DNA of 64,000 nt from Paraburkholderia ginsengiterrae (lineage in GTDB: Bacteria > Pseudomonadota > Gammaproteobacteria > Burkholderiales > Burkholderiaceae), in NCBI RefSeq assembly GCF_001645125.1, contig NZ_LXKA01000338.1:124001-188000 (forward strand), read 5' to 3'. This document shows positions 32 to 7,315 of the stretch, piece after piece. The notes under the pieces were generated by a model, which saw only the letters and a program-made list of their open reading frames with translations, made no database searches and was not told the DNA's origin. How positions within the stretch are numbered: position 1 is the first letter of the stretch; each line of letters starts with the position of its first letter. The position numbers and the translations under genes were made by a program.

Positions 32-985
32 CTAGTCTTTCGCGGGATTGCTGCCCGCGCTAAACGCGGCCCTGACTTCGTTCACCGTCTGCTCAGGCGC
101 TTGCAAATGCGGATAATGGCCGAGCCCGGGGAGAATCGTAAGCTTCACTCCGTTACGGTTTGCGTACTCGACGCCCATTTCCTTCATGATGTAGATGTCC
201 TGCTCGCCCCACACCACCTTCACAGGGACCTTCAGCTTTGCCATATTGGCTTCGAAGTAGTCCTGGTCGCGGGTGAAGCAGGAGTAGTAGTGATAGAAGG
301 CGTCTGCCGATGTGACCTCACCGCCCCACCCTTTCGCCATATCGTCCCTGAACTCCTGCGACAACGCGTAGCGCTCCTCCGGAGGCATGCCGCGGAAGAA
401 GGTGTTTGCCAGAATTTCGTCACGGTTCGTGTTCATCGCGGCATGCACGGCGTCCGACGAAGGCTTGGACTTCAGACCCTGCAAAGTTGAATACATATAC
501 TGCGGACGATTGAACGGGGCAAAGTCGCCAACGATGATCTCCCTGGCGATATCCGGTTGCTCCAATGCTGCCAGCAGCGCGGGCAAGGCCCCGATATCGG
601 TCGCATAAATCAACAGCTCCGAACTGTCGATCCCAGACGTGCGGATATAGTCTTCCAGCACGTGGGCATAATCCTTTGGCGCATAGGAGAAGCGATCGGC
701 GCCTGGACGCGAGGACTGTCCGTAACCCGGCCAGTCAAACGCATGCACCTCGTAGTCGCTGGACAAGGATTCGGCAATCGGCTTCCACGCATACATCGTC
801 TCCGGGAAGCCGTGCAGGAACAGTACCGTGCCCTTGGGATGCGCAGGCCGATAGACCATGCGACGCAGCTTGATGTCAGGATTGACCTGCACCTCGCCGA
901 CTTCGACCTTCGGTGCCGACGAGGATGACGTCGGCAGATTGGTGCTTGCGGAGAAGACTGTCGCCTTCGTTAAATGTCTGAACAT
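32..985 (-). CDS. alpha/beta hydrolase, epoxide hydrolase/dehalogenase-like
   Basis: A 317-residue alpha/beta-hydrolase. An oxyanion-hole HGFP motif lies at about residues 58-61. The nucleophile elbow reads ATDIGA with Asp at about 130, which fits Asp-nucleophile members (epoxide hydrolases, haloalkane dehalogenases) rather than Ser esterases. GEQD supplies a likely acid and the GLGHYPH segment the catalytic His at about 290. The ATG at 985 is chosen because GAGGA precedes it at good spacing; the frame stays open upstream, but that stretch runs through the promoter. The gene is divergent from the RND efflux operon and shares its symmetric control region, which suggests joint control by one regulator. 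The substrate is unknown; detoxification of an epoxide or halide that is also a pump substrate is inference. Confidence 0.85.
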   Translation of the reverse strand: MFRHLTKATVFSASTNLPTSSSSAPKVEVGEVQVNPDIKLRRMVYRPAHPKGTVLFLHGFPETMYAWKPIAESLSSDYEVHAFDWPGYGQSSRPGADRFSYAPKDYAHVLEDYIRTSGIDSSELLIYATDIGALPALLAALEQPDIAREIIVGDFAPFNRPQYMYSTLQGLKSKPSSDAVHAAMNTNRDEILANTFFRGMPPEERYALSQEFRDDMAKGWGGEVTSADAFYHYYSCFTRDQDYFEANMAKLKVPVKVVWGEQDIYIMKEMGVEYANRNGVKLTILPGLGHYPHLQAPEQTVNEVRAAFSAGSNPAKD

Positions 986-1038: not shown

Positions 1039-1084
1039 ATGGTGCATATACACCATGCAGCGGACTATAGTGTATATACACCAC
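1039..1084. promoter_or_regulatory. Two 18-bp operator-like palindromes (left pair)
   Basis: Site 1 at 1039-1056 (ATGGTGCATATACACCAT) has perfect 6-bp arms. Site 2 at 1067-1084 (ATAGTGTATATACACCAC) has a perfect 12-bp core palindrome. The two match at 15 of 18 positions and start 28 bp apart. Site 2 lies in the -10/-35 spacer of the hydrolase promoter and site 1 over its expected start point, as expected for a dimeric repressor of the TetR or MarR type. A further 10-bp palindrome ACCATATGGT lies at 1024-1033. No regulator gene is visible beside them. Confidence 0.7.
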
Positions 1085-1092
1085 ACGATCAA
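1064..1092 (-). promoter_or_regulatory. Sigma70-type promoter for the hydrolase gene
   Basis: Read on the minus strand: -35 TTGATC (1087-1092), a 17-bp spacer, and -10 TATAGT (1064-1069). The predicted start is near 1057, about 70 bp before the hydrolase ATG. The spacer contains operator-like site 2. Confidence 0.65.
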
Positions 1093-1108
1093 GCGAGAAC
1101 GTGTGCAG

Positions 1109-1161
1109 GAAATCGCACTTCACTGTTTCATGATCAGACTGAAACAATGAAGTGCAATTTC
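1109..1161. repeat. Long inverted repeat at the dyad centre
   Basis: Arms 1109-1130 and 1140-1161 are complementary at 20 of 22 positions around a 9-nt centre that contains TGATCA. The centre (about 1135) coincides with the midpoint of the two operator pairs. The flanks 1087-1100 and 1171-1183 also resemble each other in inverted orientation, so the whole of 1039-1232 reads as a decayed inverted duplication of one promoter. Confidence 0.7.
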
Positions 1162-1177
1162 TAGAACGCAATTTTCG

Positions 1178-1206
1178 TTGACCATATAGTGCATACGCAC
1201 TATATT
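1178..1206 (+). promoter_or_regulatory. Sigma70-type promoter for the RND efflux operon
   Basis: -35 TTGACC (1178-1183), a 17-bp spacer, and -10 TATATT (1201-1206), both close to consensus. The predicted start is near 1213, giving a leader of about 265 nt before the adaptor gene. It mirrors the minus-strand promoter at 1064-1092, with an operator in the same position in the spacer. Confidence 0.7.
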
Positions 1207-1232
1207 TTGCGACGATGGTGTATCTGCACCAA
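1186..1232. promoter_or_regulatory. Two 18-bp operator-like palindromes (right pair)
   Basis: Site 3 at 1186-1203 (ATAGTGCATACGCACTAT) has perfect 7-bp arms and fills the spacer of the efflux promoter. Site 4 at 1215-1232 (ATGGTGTATCTGCACCAA) covers the expected start point. They start 29 bp apart, mirroring the left pair. A shorter related palindrome TGCATATGCA lies in the leader at 1392-1401. Confidence 0.7.
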
Positions 1233-1478: not shown

Positions 1479-2612
1479 ATGGATGTCACACGGATTAAAT
1501 TGGGAATGGTCGGCGCCGTAGCGGGAACGCTAGCCCTGGCCGCATGTGGGCAAAAGCCGCCCGTACGTTCACCCGGGCTGCCTGAGGTCGGCGTGATAAC
1601 AGTCGCACCACAGGCGGTCACGACGACAACCGAACTACCGGGCCGCACCAATGCCTTTCTTGTCGCCCAGGTTCGGGCACGCGTCGACGGTATCGTGCTG
1701 CACCGCGGATTTACAGAAGGCGACGACGTAAAGGAAGGACAACGTCTCTACAAGATCGACCCGGCGCCCTATGTCGCCGCGTTGAATAGCGCCAGGGCAA
1801 CGCTCGCGAAGGCGAGAGCCAACGCGATTGCCGCCGATTCCCTTGCTCAGCGTGATAAGCCGCTGGTGGCCGCAAACGCGATCAGCAAGCAGGAATACGA
1901 CAATGCTGTCGCCGCGGCTGGACAAGCGGAAGCCGACATTGCCGCAGCGAAGGCAGCGGTCGATACAGCGCAGATCAATCTCAACTACACGGACGTGATA
2001 TCGCCGATCTCGGGCCGGGTTGGCATATCGCAAGTCACGCCGGGCGCGTATGTGCAGACGAGCCAGGCGACGCTGATGGCCACGATCCAGCAGTTGGACC
2101 CGATGTATGTGGACGTGACGCAATCGAGTCTCGAAGGCTTGCGACTGCGCCGCGAATTCGAGGAAGGAAAGCTCGACGCGGCTGGACCGAACGCGGCTGC
2201 GGTTTCACTGACCCTCGAAGATGGACGCGTTTATCCGCTGCAAGGCAAGCTGCAATTCTCGGACGTGACCGTCGATCAGACCACCGGGTCGGTGACGATC
2301 CGCGCGCTTTTCCCGAACCCGAACCATGTTCTGCTGCCGGGTATGTTTGTGCGCGCGCACATTCAGGAGGGAATCAGACAAGGCGCATACGTGGTGCCGC
2401 AAATCGGCATTACACATGATCAGAAGGGCCGCGCAACGGCGCTGGTCGTCGGACAGGACAACAAGGTGGTGTTGCGTCAGGTCGTCACATCGTCGACTTC
2501 CGGCACCAACTGGATCGTGGAAGGCGGCTTGAATCCAGGCGACCGCGTGATCGTGGAGGGCACCGAGAAGGTTCGCCCGGGCGCGATCGTGAAAGCCACT
2601 GCTGCGCGGTAA
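1479..2612 (+). CDS. RND efflux periplasmic adaptor (membrane fusion protein)
   Basis: A 377-residue HlyD/AcrA-family adaptor linking an inner-membrane RND pump to an outer-membrane channel. The N-terminus is a lipoprotein signal ending in LALAAC, so the mature protein should be lipid-anchored. The VRARVDGIV and later ISPISGRVG segments form the two lipoyl half-motifs, with an alpha-helical hairpin between them (about residues 100-165), followed by beta-barrel and membrane-proximal domains. The ATG at 1479 was chosen; an in-frame TTG at 1464 is possible and neither has a strong ribosome-binding site. It is first in a three-gene operon, 10 nt before the pump gene. Close in type to AcrA/MexA/BpeA; the exact substrate cannot be read from sequence. 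Confidence 0.93.
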
Positions 2613-2622
2613 CGGGGGCGAC

Positions 2623-5600
2623 ATGGCTAATTTCTTCATTGATCGCCCCATTTTTGCCTGGGTCATCGCCATCATCCTGATGCTGGCAGGCGCGGCATCG
2701 ATCTCCACCCTGCCCGTCGCGCAGTATCCGACCATCGCACCGCCGTCGATCCAGATCACAGCGACTTATCCGGGCGCGTCCGCGAAAACCGTGGAAGACA
2801 CCGTCACCCAGGTGATCGAGCAGCAGATGAACGGTCTCGATCATCTGCTTTACATTTCGTCGCAGTCGGACGACTTCGGCACGGCGACGATCACGCTGAC
2901 CTTCGCGGCCGGCACGAACCCCGATACCGCGCAGGTACAGGCGCAAAACAAGCTATCTCTGGCGACACCGCTTTTGCCGCAGGCAGTTCAGCAACTCGGA
3001 ACAAAGGTCACCAAGTCGAGCAGCAGCTTTTTGCTGGTCCTCGCTTTCGTGTCCGAAGACGGGAGCATGAACAAGTACGACCTTGCCAATTACGTGGCCT
3101 CGAAGGTGCAGGATCCCGTTAGCCGCATCGACGGCGTCGGCACGGTGGCGCTGCTGGGCGGTACGCAGTTCGCCATGCGCGTGTGGCTGGACCCGCACAA
3201 ACTTGACGACTTCGGGTTGTCGCCGGTCGACGTCGAACAGGCACTGCAGACGCAGAACGTGCAAGTCGCGTCCGGCCAGGTCGGCGGCACGCCTGCGGTG
3301 CCGGGTCAGGCGCTGCAGGCGACCATCACGGAGGCGACCCTGCTGCGTACGCCCGAGCAGTTCGGCAACATACTCCTGAAGGTCAATCAGGACGGCTCCC
3401 AGGTTCGCATCAAGGATGTGGGACGCGTCGAGCTTGGCGGCGAGAACTTCAACATCGACACGAAGTACAACGGCCAGCCGGCTGCGGGCGTCGGCATCTA
3501 CCTTGCGACCGGCGCGAACGCTCTGGCCACCGCAAAGGCGGTGCGAATGAAAGTCGACGAGCTGTCGAAGTACTTTCCGCATGGCCTCGTCGTGAAGTAT
3601 CCGTATGACACGACGCCGTTCGTCAAGCTGTCCATCGAGGATGTGATCAAGACGCTGCTCGAAGGCATCGTGCTCGTGTTCCTCGTGATGTACCTGTTCC
3701 TGCAGAACCTGCGTGCCACGTTGATCCCCACGATCGCAGTGCCTGTCGTTCTGCTCGGGACGTTCGCCGTGATGGCCGCGGTGGGTTTCACCATCAATGT
3801 GCTGTCGATGTTCGGTCTCGTGCTCGCGATTGGCCTGCTGGTGGACGATGCGATCGTGGTGGTCGAAAACGTCGAGCGGGTGATGTCGGAAGAAGGCCTG
3901 TCACCACGCGATGCAACCCGCAAGGCGATGGGCCAGATCACGGGCGCGCTGGTCGGTGTGGCGCTGGTGCTGGGTGCCGTGTTCGTGCCCGTGGCATTCT
4001 CGGGCGGCTCGGTCGGCGCGATCTACCGGCAGTTCTCGCTGACCATCGTGGCCGCGATGGTGCTGTCCGTGCTGGTCGCTCTGATTCTCACACCGGCGCT
4101 GTGCGCGACGATCCTGAAGCCCATCCAACAGGGTCACCACGAAGAGAAAAAGGGCTTCTTCGGCTGGTTCAACCGCACCTTCGACAAGAGCCGCGACAGA
4201 TACCACGCTGGTGTACACCATGTGATCAGGCGTTCGGGCCGCTGGCTCGTGATCTATATCGCGGTGATCGCCGCAGTGGGCCTGTTGTTTGTGAAGCTGC
4301 CGAAGTCGTTCCTGCCGGACGAGGACCAGGGAACCATGTTCGTGCTGGTCCGCACACCAGCGGGTTCGACCCAGGAAACGACCGCACATACGCTAAAAGA
4401 TATTTCCGACTACCTGCTCAACGACGAGAAAAGCATCGTCGAGTCCACGTTCACGGTTGACGGCTTCAGTTTCGCGGGGCGTGGCCAGAACTCCGGTATC
4501 GTCTTCATCCGTCTGAAGGACTACGCGGCGCGGCAACGCTCTGATCAGAAGGCGCAAGCGTTGGTCGCCCGGCTCGCCGCGCGATTCGCCCCGTACAAGA
4601 CCGCACTGGTCATCCCGGTCAACCCGCCATCGATACCCGAACTGGGGACGGCGTCCGGCTTCGATTTCGAACTCGAAGACCGGGCCGGTGTGGGGCACGA
4701 TGTGCTCATGGCGGCGCGCAACCAGTTGCTGGAGATAGCTGCGAAGGATCCCGCGCTCGCGCGCGTACGTCCGAACGGTCTGAACGACACGCCGCAGTTC
4801 AAGGTGGATATCGATCGCGAGAAAGCCCTGTCGCTCGGCGTCACGCCGGCCGCGATCGACCAGACGTTCTCGATTGCGTGGGCGTCGCAGTACGTGAACA
4901 ACTTTCTCGATACCGACAACCGGATCAAGAAGGTGTATGTGCAGGGCGACGCGCCGTTCCGCATGTCGCCGGATGACCTGAACGTCTGGTACGTGCGTAA
5001 CGCGTCGGGTGGGATGGTGCCGTTCAGCGCGTTCGCGACCGGCCAGTGGACCTACGGGTCGCCCAAGCTCGAACGCTACAACGGTGTATCGGCGGTCGAA
5101 ATCCAGGGTGCGGCCGCGCCGGGCAAGAGCACCGGGCAGGCGCTAGGCGCGATGGAAAAGATCGCGGCTCAACTTCCGGCGGGCATCGGCTTCGAATGGA
5201 CCGGGTTGTCGCTCCAGGAAATCCAGTCCGGCTCGCAGGCGCCCATTTTGTACGGCGTCTCGATCCTCGTCGTGTTTCTGTGTCTCGCGGCCCTCTACGA
5301 GAGCTGGTCAATTCCGTTCTCGGTGATCATGGTCGTGCCGCTCGGCGTGATCGGCGCCCTCCTCGCCGTCATGCTGCGCGGGCTCGAAAACGACGTGTTC
5401 TTCCAGGTGGGTCTGTTGACCACAGTCGGCCTGTCCGCGAAGAACGCGATCCTGATCGTGGAATTCGCACGGGAATTGCAGCAGACACGCGGCATGGGAC
5501 TCGTGGCAGCGGCGCTCGAGGCGTCACGCTTGCGGCTGCGGCCGATCCTGATGACGTCGATGGCCTTCATCCTCGGCGTGCTTCCGCTTGCCATCAGCAA

Positions 5601-5832
5601 CGGCGCGGGATCGGCGAGCCAGCACTCGATCGGAACGGGCGTGATCGGCGGGATGCTGACGGCGACGTTCTTTGCCATCTTCATGATCCCCATGTTCTTC
5701 GTCGTCATCCGTTCGACGTTCTCCGGTGAGAAGGATGACTCCGTTCACGCGTTCCCGCACGACGAGCCGCACCAACCCGACGATTCCGGCGAGCGCGTCG
5801 CGATAGGTGTCAACGATGAAACGGCCGGTTGA
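2623..5832 (+). CDS. RND multidrug efflux pump, HAE1 family (AcrB/MexB type)
   Basis: A 1069-residue inner-membrane proton/drug antiporter of the hydrophobe/amphiphile efflux family, at the usual family length. It begins with the characteristic [11 protein letters not shown] segment. The proton-relay residues are intact: the TM4 acidic pair is Asp408/Asp409 ([13 protein letters not shown]) and the TM10 lysine is Lys940 (GLSAKNAIL), matching AcrB D407/D408 and K940. Two large periplasmic loops follow TM1 and TM7 as expected. A GGGGGCG stretch precedes the ATG. It sits between its adaptor and channel genes. Likely exports antibiotics, solvents or aromatic compounds. Confidence 0.96.
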
Positions 5833-5842
5833 GGAGAGCGAA

Positions 5843-7315
5843 ATGCGAAAACTTTCGTTGATGCCAATCGCGCTTGCGATGCTGATCACCGGCTGTACGA
5901 TGGAGCCGCACTACCATCGCCCGGATGCGCCGGTGGCGGCGTCGTTCCCGAGCGGCGGCGTCTATCAGACGGGGGCACCTTCAAAGAGCAGCGAGCGCTC
6001 GGCGAACGGCCAGCCGGCTCCCGACATCGGCTGGCGCAACTTCTTCGTCGATGCGCGTCTGCAGGAACTCATCGCGATCGCGCTGAAGAATAACCGCGAT
6101 CTGCGCGTGTCGGCGCTCAACATCGAGGCTGCACGTGCGCAATATCAGATAACGCGCGCGGGGTTGTTTCCAGCAATCGACGCGGCGGCTTCGCAGAGCA
6201 AGCTGCGCACCCCGCGAGATCTGTCGTCTACGCCACGGACCGTCTCGGACGTGTATTCGGTCGGCCTGAACGCGTCATGGGAAATCGACTTCTTTGGGCG
6301 AATCCGAAGCCTCAAGGACCAGGCGCTCGCGCAGTATCTGGCCACATCGCAAGCTCGCAAGGCGGCCGAACTCTCGCTGGTTTCGGAGGTGGCGGACCAG
6401 TACCTGACGATGATCGCCTACGATGAGCTACTCGAGGTCACGCGCGACACGCTCAAGACCGCGCAGGGTTCCTACGGGCTCACGAAGCTGCAGTTCGACA
6501 ATGGCACCGGCTCTGAACTCGATCTGCGCCAGGCGCAGACCGTAGTCGACGAGGCGCAGGCGAACCTGCAGGCACAGGAACGTGCGCGCGCTCAGGCCGA
6601 GAATTCGCTCGTGTTCCTGATCGGCGAACCATTGCCCGCGGATCTCCCGCCGGGCGCAACGCTCGACGGGCAGGATTTGCTGGAGGACATTCCGGCGGGT
6701 CTGCCTTCCGATTTGTTGAGCCGCCGGCCGGACATCATCGAAGCTGAAGAGAACCTCCTGGCGGCGAATGCGAATATTGGCGCGGCGCGCGCCGCGTTCT
6801 TTCCGAAAGTTTCGCTGACCGGCAATTTCGGCACGCTCAGTCCGTCGCTGGGCGGACTGTTCAAGCCGGGTTCCGCGGCGTGGGGCTTTGGACCACAGAT
6901 ATCCGTGCCGATTTTCGCAGGTGGCGAGAACCGGGCTAATCTCGACTTGGCCAATGTGCAGAAAAACATCCAGGTCGCGCAATACGAAAAGGCGATCCAG
7001 ACTGCGTTCCGCGAAGTGGCTGACGGTCTTGCAGCGCGCGGCACGTACGATCAGGAGATCGAAGCTCGCCAGCACGACACGTTAGCTGAACAGCGCCGGC
7101 TCGAGTTGTCGGAGCTGCGGTACCGGCATGGCGTCGACAGCTATCTGTCGGTGCTGACCGCTCAGAATGACCTCTACGCTTCGCGGCAGTCATTGATCAC
7201 CGCGAGGATGCAGCGTCTAACGAGTCTCGTCGATCTGTATCGTGCGCTTGGGGGTGGGTGGATCGAGCGGTCAGGCGACGAGCCGCGAGCTGCCGACGCT
7301 CCGGGCGTCGGCTAA
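5843..7315 (+). CDS. RND efflux outer-membrane lipoprotein, OprM/NodT type
   Basis: A 490-residue TolC-like outer-membrane factor. The ATG at 5843 is chosen over an upstream ATG at 5807, which lies inside the pump gene, because GAGGAGAG at 5831-5838 is well placed and the protein then begins with a clean lipoprotein signal ending in LITGC. Two repeated outer-membrane-efflux domains follow, including DIGWRNFFVDARLQELI and the RRPDIIEAEENLLAANANIGAARA signature of the second half. It completes the tripartite pump; there are only 10 nt between the pump stop and this start. Confidence 0.95.
   Translation: MRKLSLMPIALAMLITGCTMEPHYHRPDAPVAASFPSGGVYQTGAPSKSSERSANGQPAPDIGWRNFFVDARLQELIAIALKNNRDLRVSALNIEAARAQYQITRAGLFPAIDAAASQSKLRTPRDLSSTPRTVSDVYSVGLNASWEIDFFGRIRSLKDQALAQYLATSQARKAAELSLVSEVADQYLTMIAYDELLEVTRDTLKTAQGSYGLTKLQFDNGTGSELDLRQAQTVVDEAQANLQAQERARAQAENSLVFLIGEPLPADLPPGATLDGQDLLEDIPAGLPSDLLSRRPDIIEAEENLLAANANIGAARAAFFPKVSLTGNFGTLSPSLGGLFKPGSAAWGFGPQISVPIFAGGENRANLDLANVQKNIQVAQYEKAIQTAFREVADGLAARGTYDQEIEARQHDTLAEQRRLELSELRYRHGVDSYLSVLTAQNDLYASRQSLITARMQRLTSLVDLYRALGGGWIERSGDEPRAADAPGVG

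Follow-up and report, generated by a model that had tools for sequence, protein, structure and literature searches.

The marRAB operator of Escherichia coli contains two MarR sites, the first within the -35/-10 region and the second close to the start point, and belongs to a single promoter that has no mirror partner. In Pseudomonas aeruginosa, mexR and mexAB-oprM are oriented divergently. In the mexR system, an RND operon is controlled by a MarR-family repressor for which the mexR-mexA intergenic region has several sites, and the gel-shift pattern of MexR suggests multiple sites and/or cooperative binding, according to an excerpt of a paper that also cites the work identifying these sites (PMC3290565). 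In Agrobacterium tumefaciens, the gene of the MarR-type repressor EstR lies beside and divergent from the esterase gene estC; EstR has two operators, GTTATCGCGATAAC and AATATCGCGATAAG, that overlap two divergent promoters, it is autoregulated, and the excerpt of the paper mentions no pump (PMC5201249). The redox-sensing MarR protein SydR of Sinorhizobium meliloti has two TATCGCGATA palindromes in the intergenic region shared with the neighbouring SMa2023, one before each of two start sites, and SMa2023 is apparently not a pump, as far as the excerpt goes (PMC11633110). The sensor of both EstR and SydR is a cysteine at position 16 (PMC5201249, PMC11633110). In Burkholderia cenocepacia, a lipase-like gene, llpE, is located inside the RND pump operon llpE-ceoAB-opcM (PMC1557404). 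The CeoR regulator of that species is of the LysR type.

At the locus analysed here, as in the mexR case, a MarR-family gene is associated with an RND operon and with several predicted sites in one intergenic region; unlike mexR, marR is here the second gene behind a hydrolase gene, and the two promoters appear to be homologous copies. With EstR the locus shares the neighbourhood of regulator and hydrolase genes, but marR is codirectional with the hydrolase, the operators differ from those of EstR, and an RND pump is present. As for SydR, a palindrome precedes each of two start sites, which are predicted ones here, but its sequence is different. A lipase-like gene accompanies the pump in B. 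cenocepacia as a hydrolase gene does here, but the latter is divergent from the pump and not part of one operon with it. Two sites per promoter recall marRAB, from which the locus differs by its second, mirrored promoter. No paper with the locus itself in its title was found in the open-access literature searched. The excerpt of PMC4486848 gave nothing further on operator layout, and that of PMC5789663 deals with other RND pumps, induced by Mimosa root exudates.

Gene neighbourhood and candidate regulator

The window, i.e. the whole stretch of 64,000 nucleotides analysed, corresponds to C328:124001-188000 of its genome (G000); coordinates are counted from its first nucleotide. The genes considered are the following.

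-503 to -33 (C328:123497-123967; 17497-17967 of L001), minus strand: MarR-family gene marR, Pfam MarR_2
32 to 985, minus strand: alpha/beta hydrolase gene with its ATG at 985, encoding 317 aa, Pfam Abhydrolase_6 at 5.3e-20
1479 to 2612, plus strand: RND periplasmic adaptor gene, MexA/AcrA type, NCBIfam TIGR01730 over cut-off
2623 to 5832, plus strand: RND permease gene, AcrB type, TIGR00915 with 1685.6 bits, over cut-off
5843 to 7315, plus strand: outer membrane channel gene, NodT type, TIGR01845 with 447 bits, over cut-off

The adjacent adaptor, permease and channel genes, all over their cut-offs, identify an RND efflux system of the AcrAB type. The start codon of the adaptor was picked by hand, a TTG at 1464 being a further possibility. 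An adaptor match at E 1e-150 or better was present in all 145 genomes of the genus; among the matches listed, identity was 100% for the window, 93% for P. piptadeniae and 71% for the next best.

According to the original prediction, the hydrolase gene and the RND operon are both shut by a single regulator, and its cognate gene is absent from the window. The latter is literally true but misleading: the search for a TetR or MarR gene in the flank, which the prediction had proposed, found marR on the minus strand, 33 bp beyond the left edge. Because marR is codirectional with the hydrolase gene and only 64 bp downstream of it, the two genes probably form one operon transcribed from the minus-strand promoter, divergent from the RND operon. 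The gene is thus divergent from the pump, yet second in its predicted operon. Its product belongs to the MarR family by Pfam MarR_2 (28.5 bits, cut-off 27), while PF01047 (MarR) stayed below its cut-off (22.9, cut-off 24.6). Eight sequences of solved structures match it, the best being 4fx0 (9.7e-11), and they are named as transcriptional regulators or repressors. It does not belong to the OhrR equivalog of Vibrio (NCBIfam NF052638; 19.8 bits, cut-off 200). Cys26, a possible counterpart of Cys22 of OhrR, is invariant in all ten MarR proteins aligned; given this residue and the precedents of EstR and SydR, redox sensing by the window MarR is a possibility.

Divergent promoters and four predicted operators

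Two sigma70 promoters facing away from each other had been proposed, each with one palindrome inside its spacer and another over its start point, at about 60 and 88 bp from a common centre near 1135. The elements of this control region, to which we add two boxes absent from the earlier account, are as follows.

1040 to 1055, no strand: predicted outer operator of the hydrolase-marR promoter, TGGTGCATATACACCA, 16/16 to the pattern TRGTGYATAYRCACYA
1064 to 1092, minus strand: sigma70-like promoter of hydrolase-marR, TTGATC-17-TATAGT, scan 9/12
1068 to 1083, no strand: predicted inner operator between the -35 and -10 hexamers of the hydrolase-marR promoter, TAGTGTATATACACCA, 16/16 to TRGTGYATAYRCACYA
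1109 to 1130, minus strand: upstream box of the hydrolase-marR promoter, TGAAACAGTGAAGTGCGATTTC, 16-nt core exact only twice in the genome
1140 to 1161, plus strand: upstream box of the RND promoter, TGAAACAATGAAGTGCAATTTC, 16-nt core exact only twice in the genome
1178 to 1206, plus strand: sigma70-like promoter of the RND operon, TTGACC-17-TATATT, scan 10/12
1187 to 1202, no strand: predicted inner operator between the -35 and -10 hexamers of the RND promoter, TAGTGCATACGCACTA, 16/16 to TRGTGYATAYRCACYA
1216 to 1231, no strand: predicted outer operator of the RND promoter, TGGTGTATCTGCACCA, 15/16 to TRGTGYATAYRCACYA, the weakest palindrome

A scan of positions 900-1500 returned exactly two sigma70-like promoters, one per strand; they are the two proposed ones and exact mirror images of each other about 1135. 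The palindromes were recovered as well, as imperfect sites of 16-18 bp with centres at -87.5, -59.5, +59.5 and +88.5 relative to this axis, one in each spacer and one over each predicted start (about 1057 on the minus and 1213 on the plus strand), the site at 1040-1055 overlapping the predicted start region of the minus-strand promoter. In the 18-mers, the arm positions paired are, in order, 8/9, 7/9, 8/9 and 6/9, the fourth site being the weakest. The two sites of a pair are 28 and 29 bp apart (about 2.7 turns), so that the outer pair is one base off the mirror. MarR operators are described as 16-20 bp long, palindromic and sometimes imperfect, in an excerpt of PMC6018408, and the four sites of 16-18 bp in the promoter region of the marR operon agree with this description.

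The axis at 1135 ranks first in the window among the odd and even axes tested with arms of 60, 70, 75 and 80 nt, with 51 of 80 pairs as compared to 43 for the runner-up axis. The symmetry runs through the upstream boxes, where 20 of the 22 positions at distances of 5-26 from the axis are paired, and fades past about 80 nt. Palindromes and symmetry could in principle be products of chance in an AT-rich intergenic region, and two observations taken singly would fit this: fifty shuffles of the scanned region gave a mean of 1.0 promoters (sd 1.0), so that the two promoters alone are not significant, and with 120-nt arms the axis at 1135 merely ties another one (58/120). The chance reading is contradicted, however, by the clustering of the operators, as the whole 8.53 Mb genome has five places that differ from TRGTGYATAYRCACYA by no more than one mismatch and four of them are inside these 192 bp, by the inner sites common to the window and P. 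piptadeniae, and by palindromes of the same kind beside 35 of 36 paralogous marR genes (see below). We regard it as vanishingly improbable. At up to two mismatches, TRGTGYATAYRCACYA was found 21 and 20 times and the reversed-pattern control 20 and 27 times, which is the control level.

The genome scan for further copies of the motif, also suggested earlier, thus yielded one further place within one mismatch. This site (C111:237714; L006:1501-1516) precedes an SDR gene and is accompanied, as read by eye, by a weak promoter fit in the same phase, TTCATT-17-TTTAAA. As a fifth operator it stays at chance level; the SDR gene had no match at E 1e-70 in the five genomes searched, a search that included no positive control. 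Two TRGTGNATNNNCACYA sites spaced by 10-16 bp occurred in one of 300 genomes of the family, the window's own, in a set that excluded P. piptadeniae (G418) and with a search that degenerate outer sites like those of this species would escape. No plasmid DNA resembling 950-1500 was matched. Beyond the outer RND operator, a short leader reading frame of 36 codons (MRRIKPF...) occupies 1246-1356; its counterpart in P. piptadeniae has 10 codons, as read by eye, and it is probably not a gene.

Palindromes beside related marR genes

MarR matches at E 1e-28 or better were found in 36 of the 145 genomes of the genus, at 39 places: the window gene, an ortholog with 84% identity in P. piptadeniae, a broken copy with 82% (G302) and 36 paralogs with 48-55% identity. 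The P. piptadeniae gene is the only intact ortholog found besides the window's own. The paralogs were counted in two sets, of 32 and of four loci, and include the window genome's own paralog (C354). At 35 of these 36 loci, a palindrome that agrees with TRKTGYATAYRCAMYA at 14 or more of the 16 positions is situated within 150 bp of marR; the sole exception is L095 (G399), where no TRKTGYATAYRCAMYA-type site was found. L040, a partial MarR match (E 1e-24) located where a contig ends and not among the 36, had no site either. In the 32 loci, 55 sites were counted in 10,240 bp near marR versus one in 86,358 bp elsewhere, with sites upstream of the gene in 23 and downstream in all 32. The pattern was fixed after 21 loci had been seen, and 11 new loci then gave 11/11. 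All paralog loci are from one genus and their sites are largely common by descent, so that they do not count as independent. In Sinorhizobium, homologs with 56-66% identity (L071, L079-L081) have palindromes of this kind beside marR in four of four cases, and the stretches fetched contained no hydrolase or pump match.

The hydrolase gene offers a second comparison. It was found in 8 of the 145 genomes, and an operator is present upstream of it in all three that have marR or a broken marR (window, P. piptadeniae and G302) and in none of the five without marR; the 16-kb stretches examined in these five contained no marR match, pump genes or upstream operator.

A regulator other than the neighbouring MarR might be the main ligand of the four palindromes, either one of the many TetR proteins or the C354 paralog. 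TetR_N matches number at least 54 in the genome (150 of 257 candidates scored), none of them on contig C328, and a TetR protein was dismissed as a candidate. The operator of the C354 paralog, TGTTGCATATGCAACA, is only two mismatches away from the pattern used here. We nevertheless consider another main ligand quite improbable: the presence of the operator tracks this marR in all eight hydrolase-bearing genomes, and the double GTG half-site of the window operators accompanies an altered presumed recognition helix in the neighbouring MarR. The window operators carry GTG in both half-sites, whereas the 55 near paralog sites (columns 3 and 14) have it in one half in 15 cases and never in both, with a TTG-type half on one side or more in all of them. 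The presumed recognition helix reads STSTRN in both window-type MarRs, which as orthologs (window and P. piptadeniae) represent one event, and STLTRN in the other eight aligned. This specificity argument is soft, because a GTG in one half is seen at 15 of the 55 paralog sites and also at certain sites in Sinorhizobium, the latter with STLTRN proteins. It points to a putative operator code for this MarR subfamily, with GTG versus mostly TTG half-sites alongside the change in the presumed recognition helix.

Proposed switch

Taken together, we consider it very probable that hydrolase-marR and the RND operon share one control region in which the neighbouring MarR represses both, and that the symmetry of this region is historical. 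The sites, the gene order, the link between this MarR subfamily and such palindromes and the presence/absence pattern were observed, whereas MarR binding, repression, signal and the function of the products are inferred. In its free form, a dimer of the MarR protein encoded just outside the window would bind the inner palindrome in each promoter spacer and exclude RNA polymerase from both promoters, and the second palindrome over each start point would add extra repression. MarR might be released by a small molecule (aromatic, from plants or drug-like) or by oxidation of the conserved cysteine. Upon release, hydrolase, MarR and pump would be made together, and MarR would then repress itself again.

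The proposal of one regulator for both transcription units is therefore well supported by the comparative evidence and can be specified as MarR type, one of the two kinds suggested earlier, while the symmetry is better explained otherwise (see below). The high cooperativity predicted along with it is questionable, given paired sites 28-29 bp apart and outer sites that are poor or absent in the relatives; on the other hand, the MexR gel shifts (PMC3290565) would allow for cooperative binding in that related system. The analysis names a candidate regulator for the RND efflux unit of the window and does not change what is known of MarR repressor action. As judged from its sequence, the locus is explained by known biology, being of the MarR-RND type with an unusual rearrangement history.

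Upstream boxes

Between the -35 hexamers, positions 1109-1161 form a second dyad of 53 bp, consisting of two facing 22-nt boxes (TGAAACArTGAAGTGCrATTTC) with 9 nt between them. It possibly represents an activator site or inherited intergenic sequence. If a separate activator on the boxes drove both promoters, the dyad would be the main control and the MarR operators would serve for fine-tuning. For this speaks that each box covers roughly -50 to -72 relative to its predicted start, that each window copy is identical to each P. piptadeniae copy at 19-20 of 22 positions as compared to 10-14 in the next 21 nt, and that the 16-nt core occurs exactly only at the window locus. However, the box upstream of the hydrolase gene, which is conserved at 20/21 in P. 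piptadeniae and G302, is nearly as good (19/21) in G343, which lacks marR and the operator-promoter, so that it may be inherited intergenic sequence; it is worn elsewhere (14/21 in G342, 11-13 in three others), its facing arrangement was seen in the window genome alone, and its core has no other place in the genome within one mismatch. Main control by such an activator is unlikely, albeit with a real chance of being correct. The box sequence TGAAACARTGAAGTGC was discarded as a regulon marker, with two exact copies, both at this locus, and five others with two mismatches, the control being similar.

Comparison with P. piptadeniae and probable origin of the symmetry

In P. piptadeniae, the gene order is MIase-hydrolase-marR-adaptor-permease-channel, all on one strand, and the hydrolase and pump promoters are homologous tandem copies about 2 kb apart (8772 and 10742 of L070). 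Both consist of the same cassette: a GAAACA(A/G)TGAAGTGCAATTT box, the -35 hexamer, a 17-nt spacer with the operator and the -10 hexamer. An inner operator with at least 14 of 16 positions is found in all five cassettes, two each in the window and P. piptadeniae and one in G302; the position of 1068-1083 is occupied in both relatives, and that of 1187-1202 in the pump promoter of P. piptadeniae (14/16). The outer site is good only in the window genome and poor or absent in the relatives: 12/16 in the pump promoter of P. piptadeniae, 27 bp after the inner site, at best 9/16 in its hydrolase promoter and 10-11/16 in G302. Only the 12/16 site is suggestive, because among 20,453 positions of L070 eight reach 12 and 709 reach 9. 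The core arrangement is, from these comparisons, one predicted operator per promoter. In G302 (L049, G302:C51), the hydrolase gene has an operator, but its -10 hexamer, CACATC, is poor, and the 14 kb fetched contain no pump; marR matches there in two pieces with a stop, and its hydrolase-marR system is apparently decayed.

Duplication of a promoter cassette and inversion explain the mirror better than a switch built to be symmetric would. The region carrying the hydrolase promoter would have been copied to a position ahead of the pump genes; of the two promoters, that of the pump is best regarded as the copy because the box is found upstream of the hydrolase gene in G343 and G342, which have neither marR nor a nearby pump. 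MIase and hydrolase genes lie on the same strand in six of the seven loci having both, and since the window genome is the exception, its hydrolase-marR block was probably inverted, which would have placed the two copies back to back. This would account for a mirror that runs through the boxes and fades beyond about 80 nt. The history may have been more complex, given further rearrangement in the window genome, where the tautomerase-glxA pair likewise has an inverted orientation with respect to MIase, and where a lysE gene is found between MIase and marR. The two window promoters do not clearly resemble their positional counterparts in P. piptadeniae more than they resemble one another, so that the duplication may be older or more recent, or gene conversion may have acted later; the order of the rearrangements is the one we infer. 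Promoter duplication followed by inversion is a plausible route to a mirror-symmetric divergent promoter.

Alternatively, the symmetry itself may be functional, with MarR dimers on the inner or outer sites touching each other and looping the DNA. For this speak the spacing of the inner centres, 119 bp or about 11.3 turns, and the near-exact mirror. In P. piptadeniae, however, the homologous promoters are in tandem at a distance of about 2 kb, so that the symmetry is not conserved, and looping is not known as a usual property of MarR; we therefore hold this reading to be very improbable. The duplicated cassette might also have recruited the pump into the MarR-hydrolase regulon, the inversion then creating a 53-bp dyad that couples the two operons via an activator or MarR looping. 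This combination is rather unlikely; if true, it would be a natural symmetric regulatory architecture built in two rearrangement steps. Duplication and inversion, with a symmetry that is historical, is the explanation we prefer.

Further observations at the C354 paralog

The paralog of the window genome (C354:29407-29820; region L038:1074-3002) has an Ohr gene (TIGR03561, above its cut-off) on one side and a nitrilase-like gene (TIGR04048 with 466 bits, below the cut-off of 502.6) on the other, and its operator TGTTGCATATGCAACA is situated beside the MarR gene. Similarly, a carbon-nitrogen hydrolase gene (Pfam PF00795) comes after the MarR gene of Sinorhizobium terangae (L079). Another alpha/beta hydrolase gene of the window genome (C134; L013:286-1516; Pfam PF00561) is preceded by TATTGCATATGCAACA and is perhaps part of the regulon of the C354 paralog.
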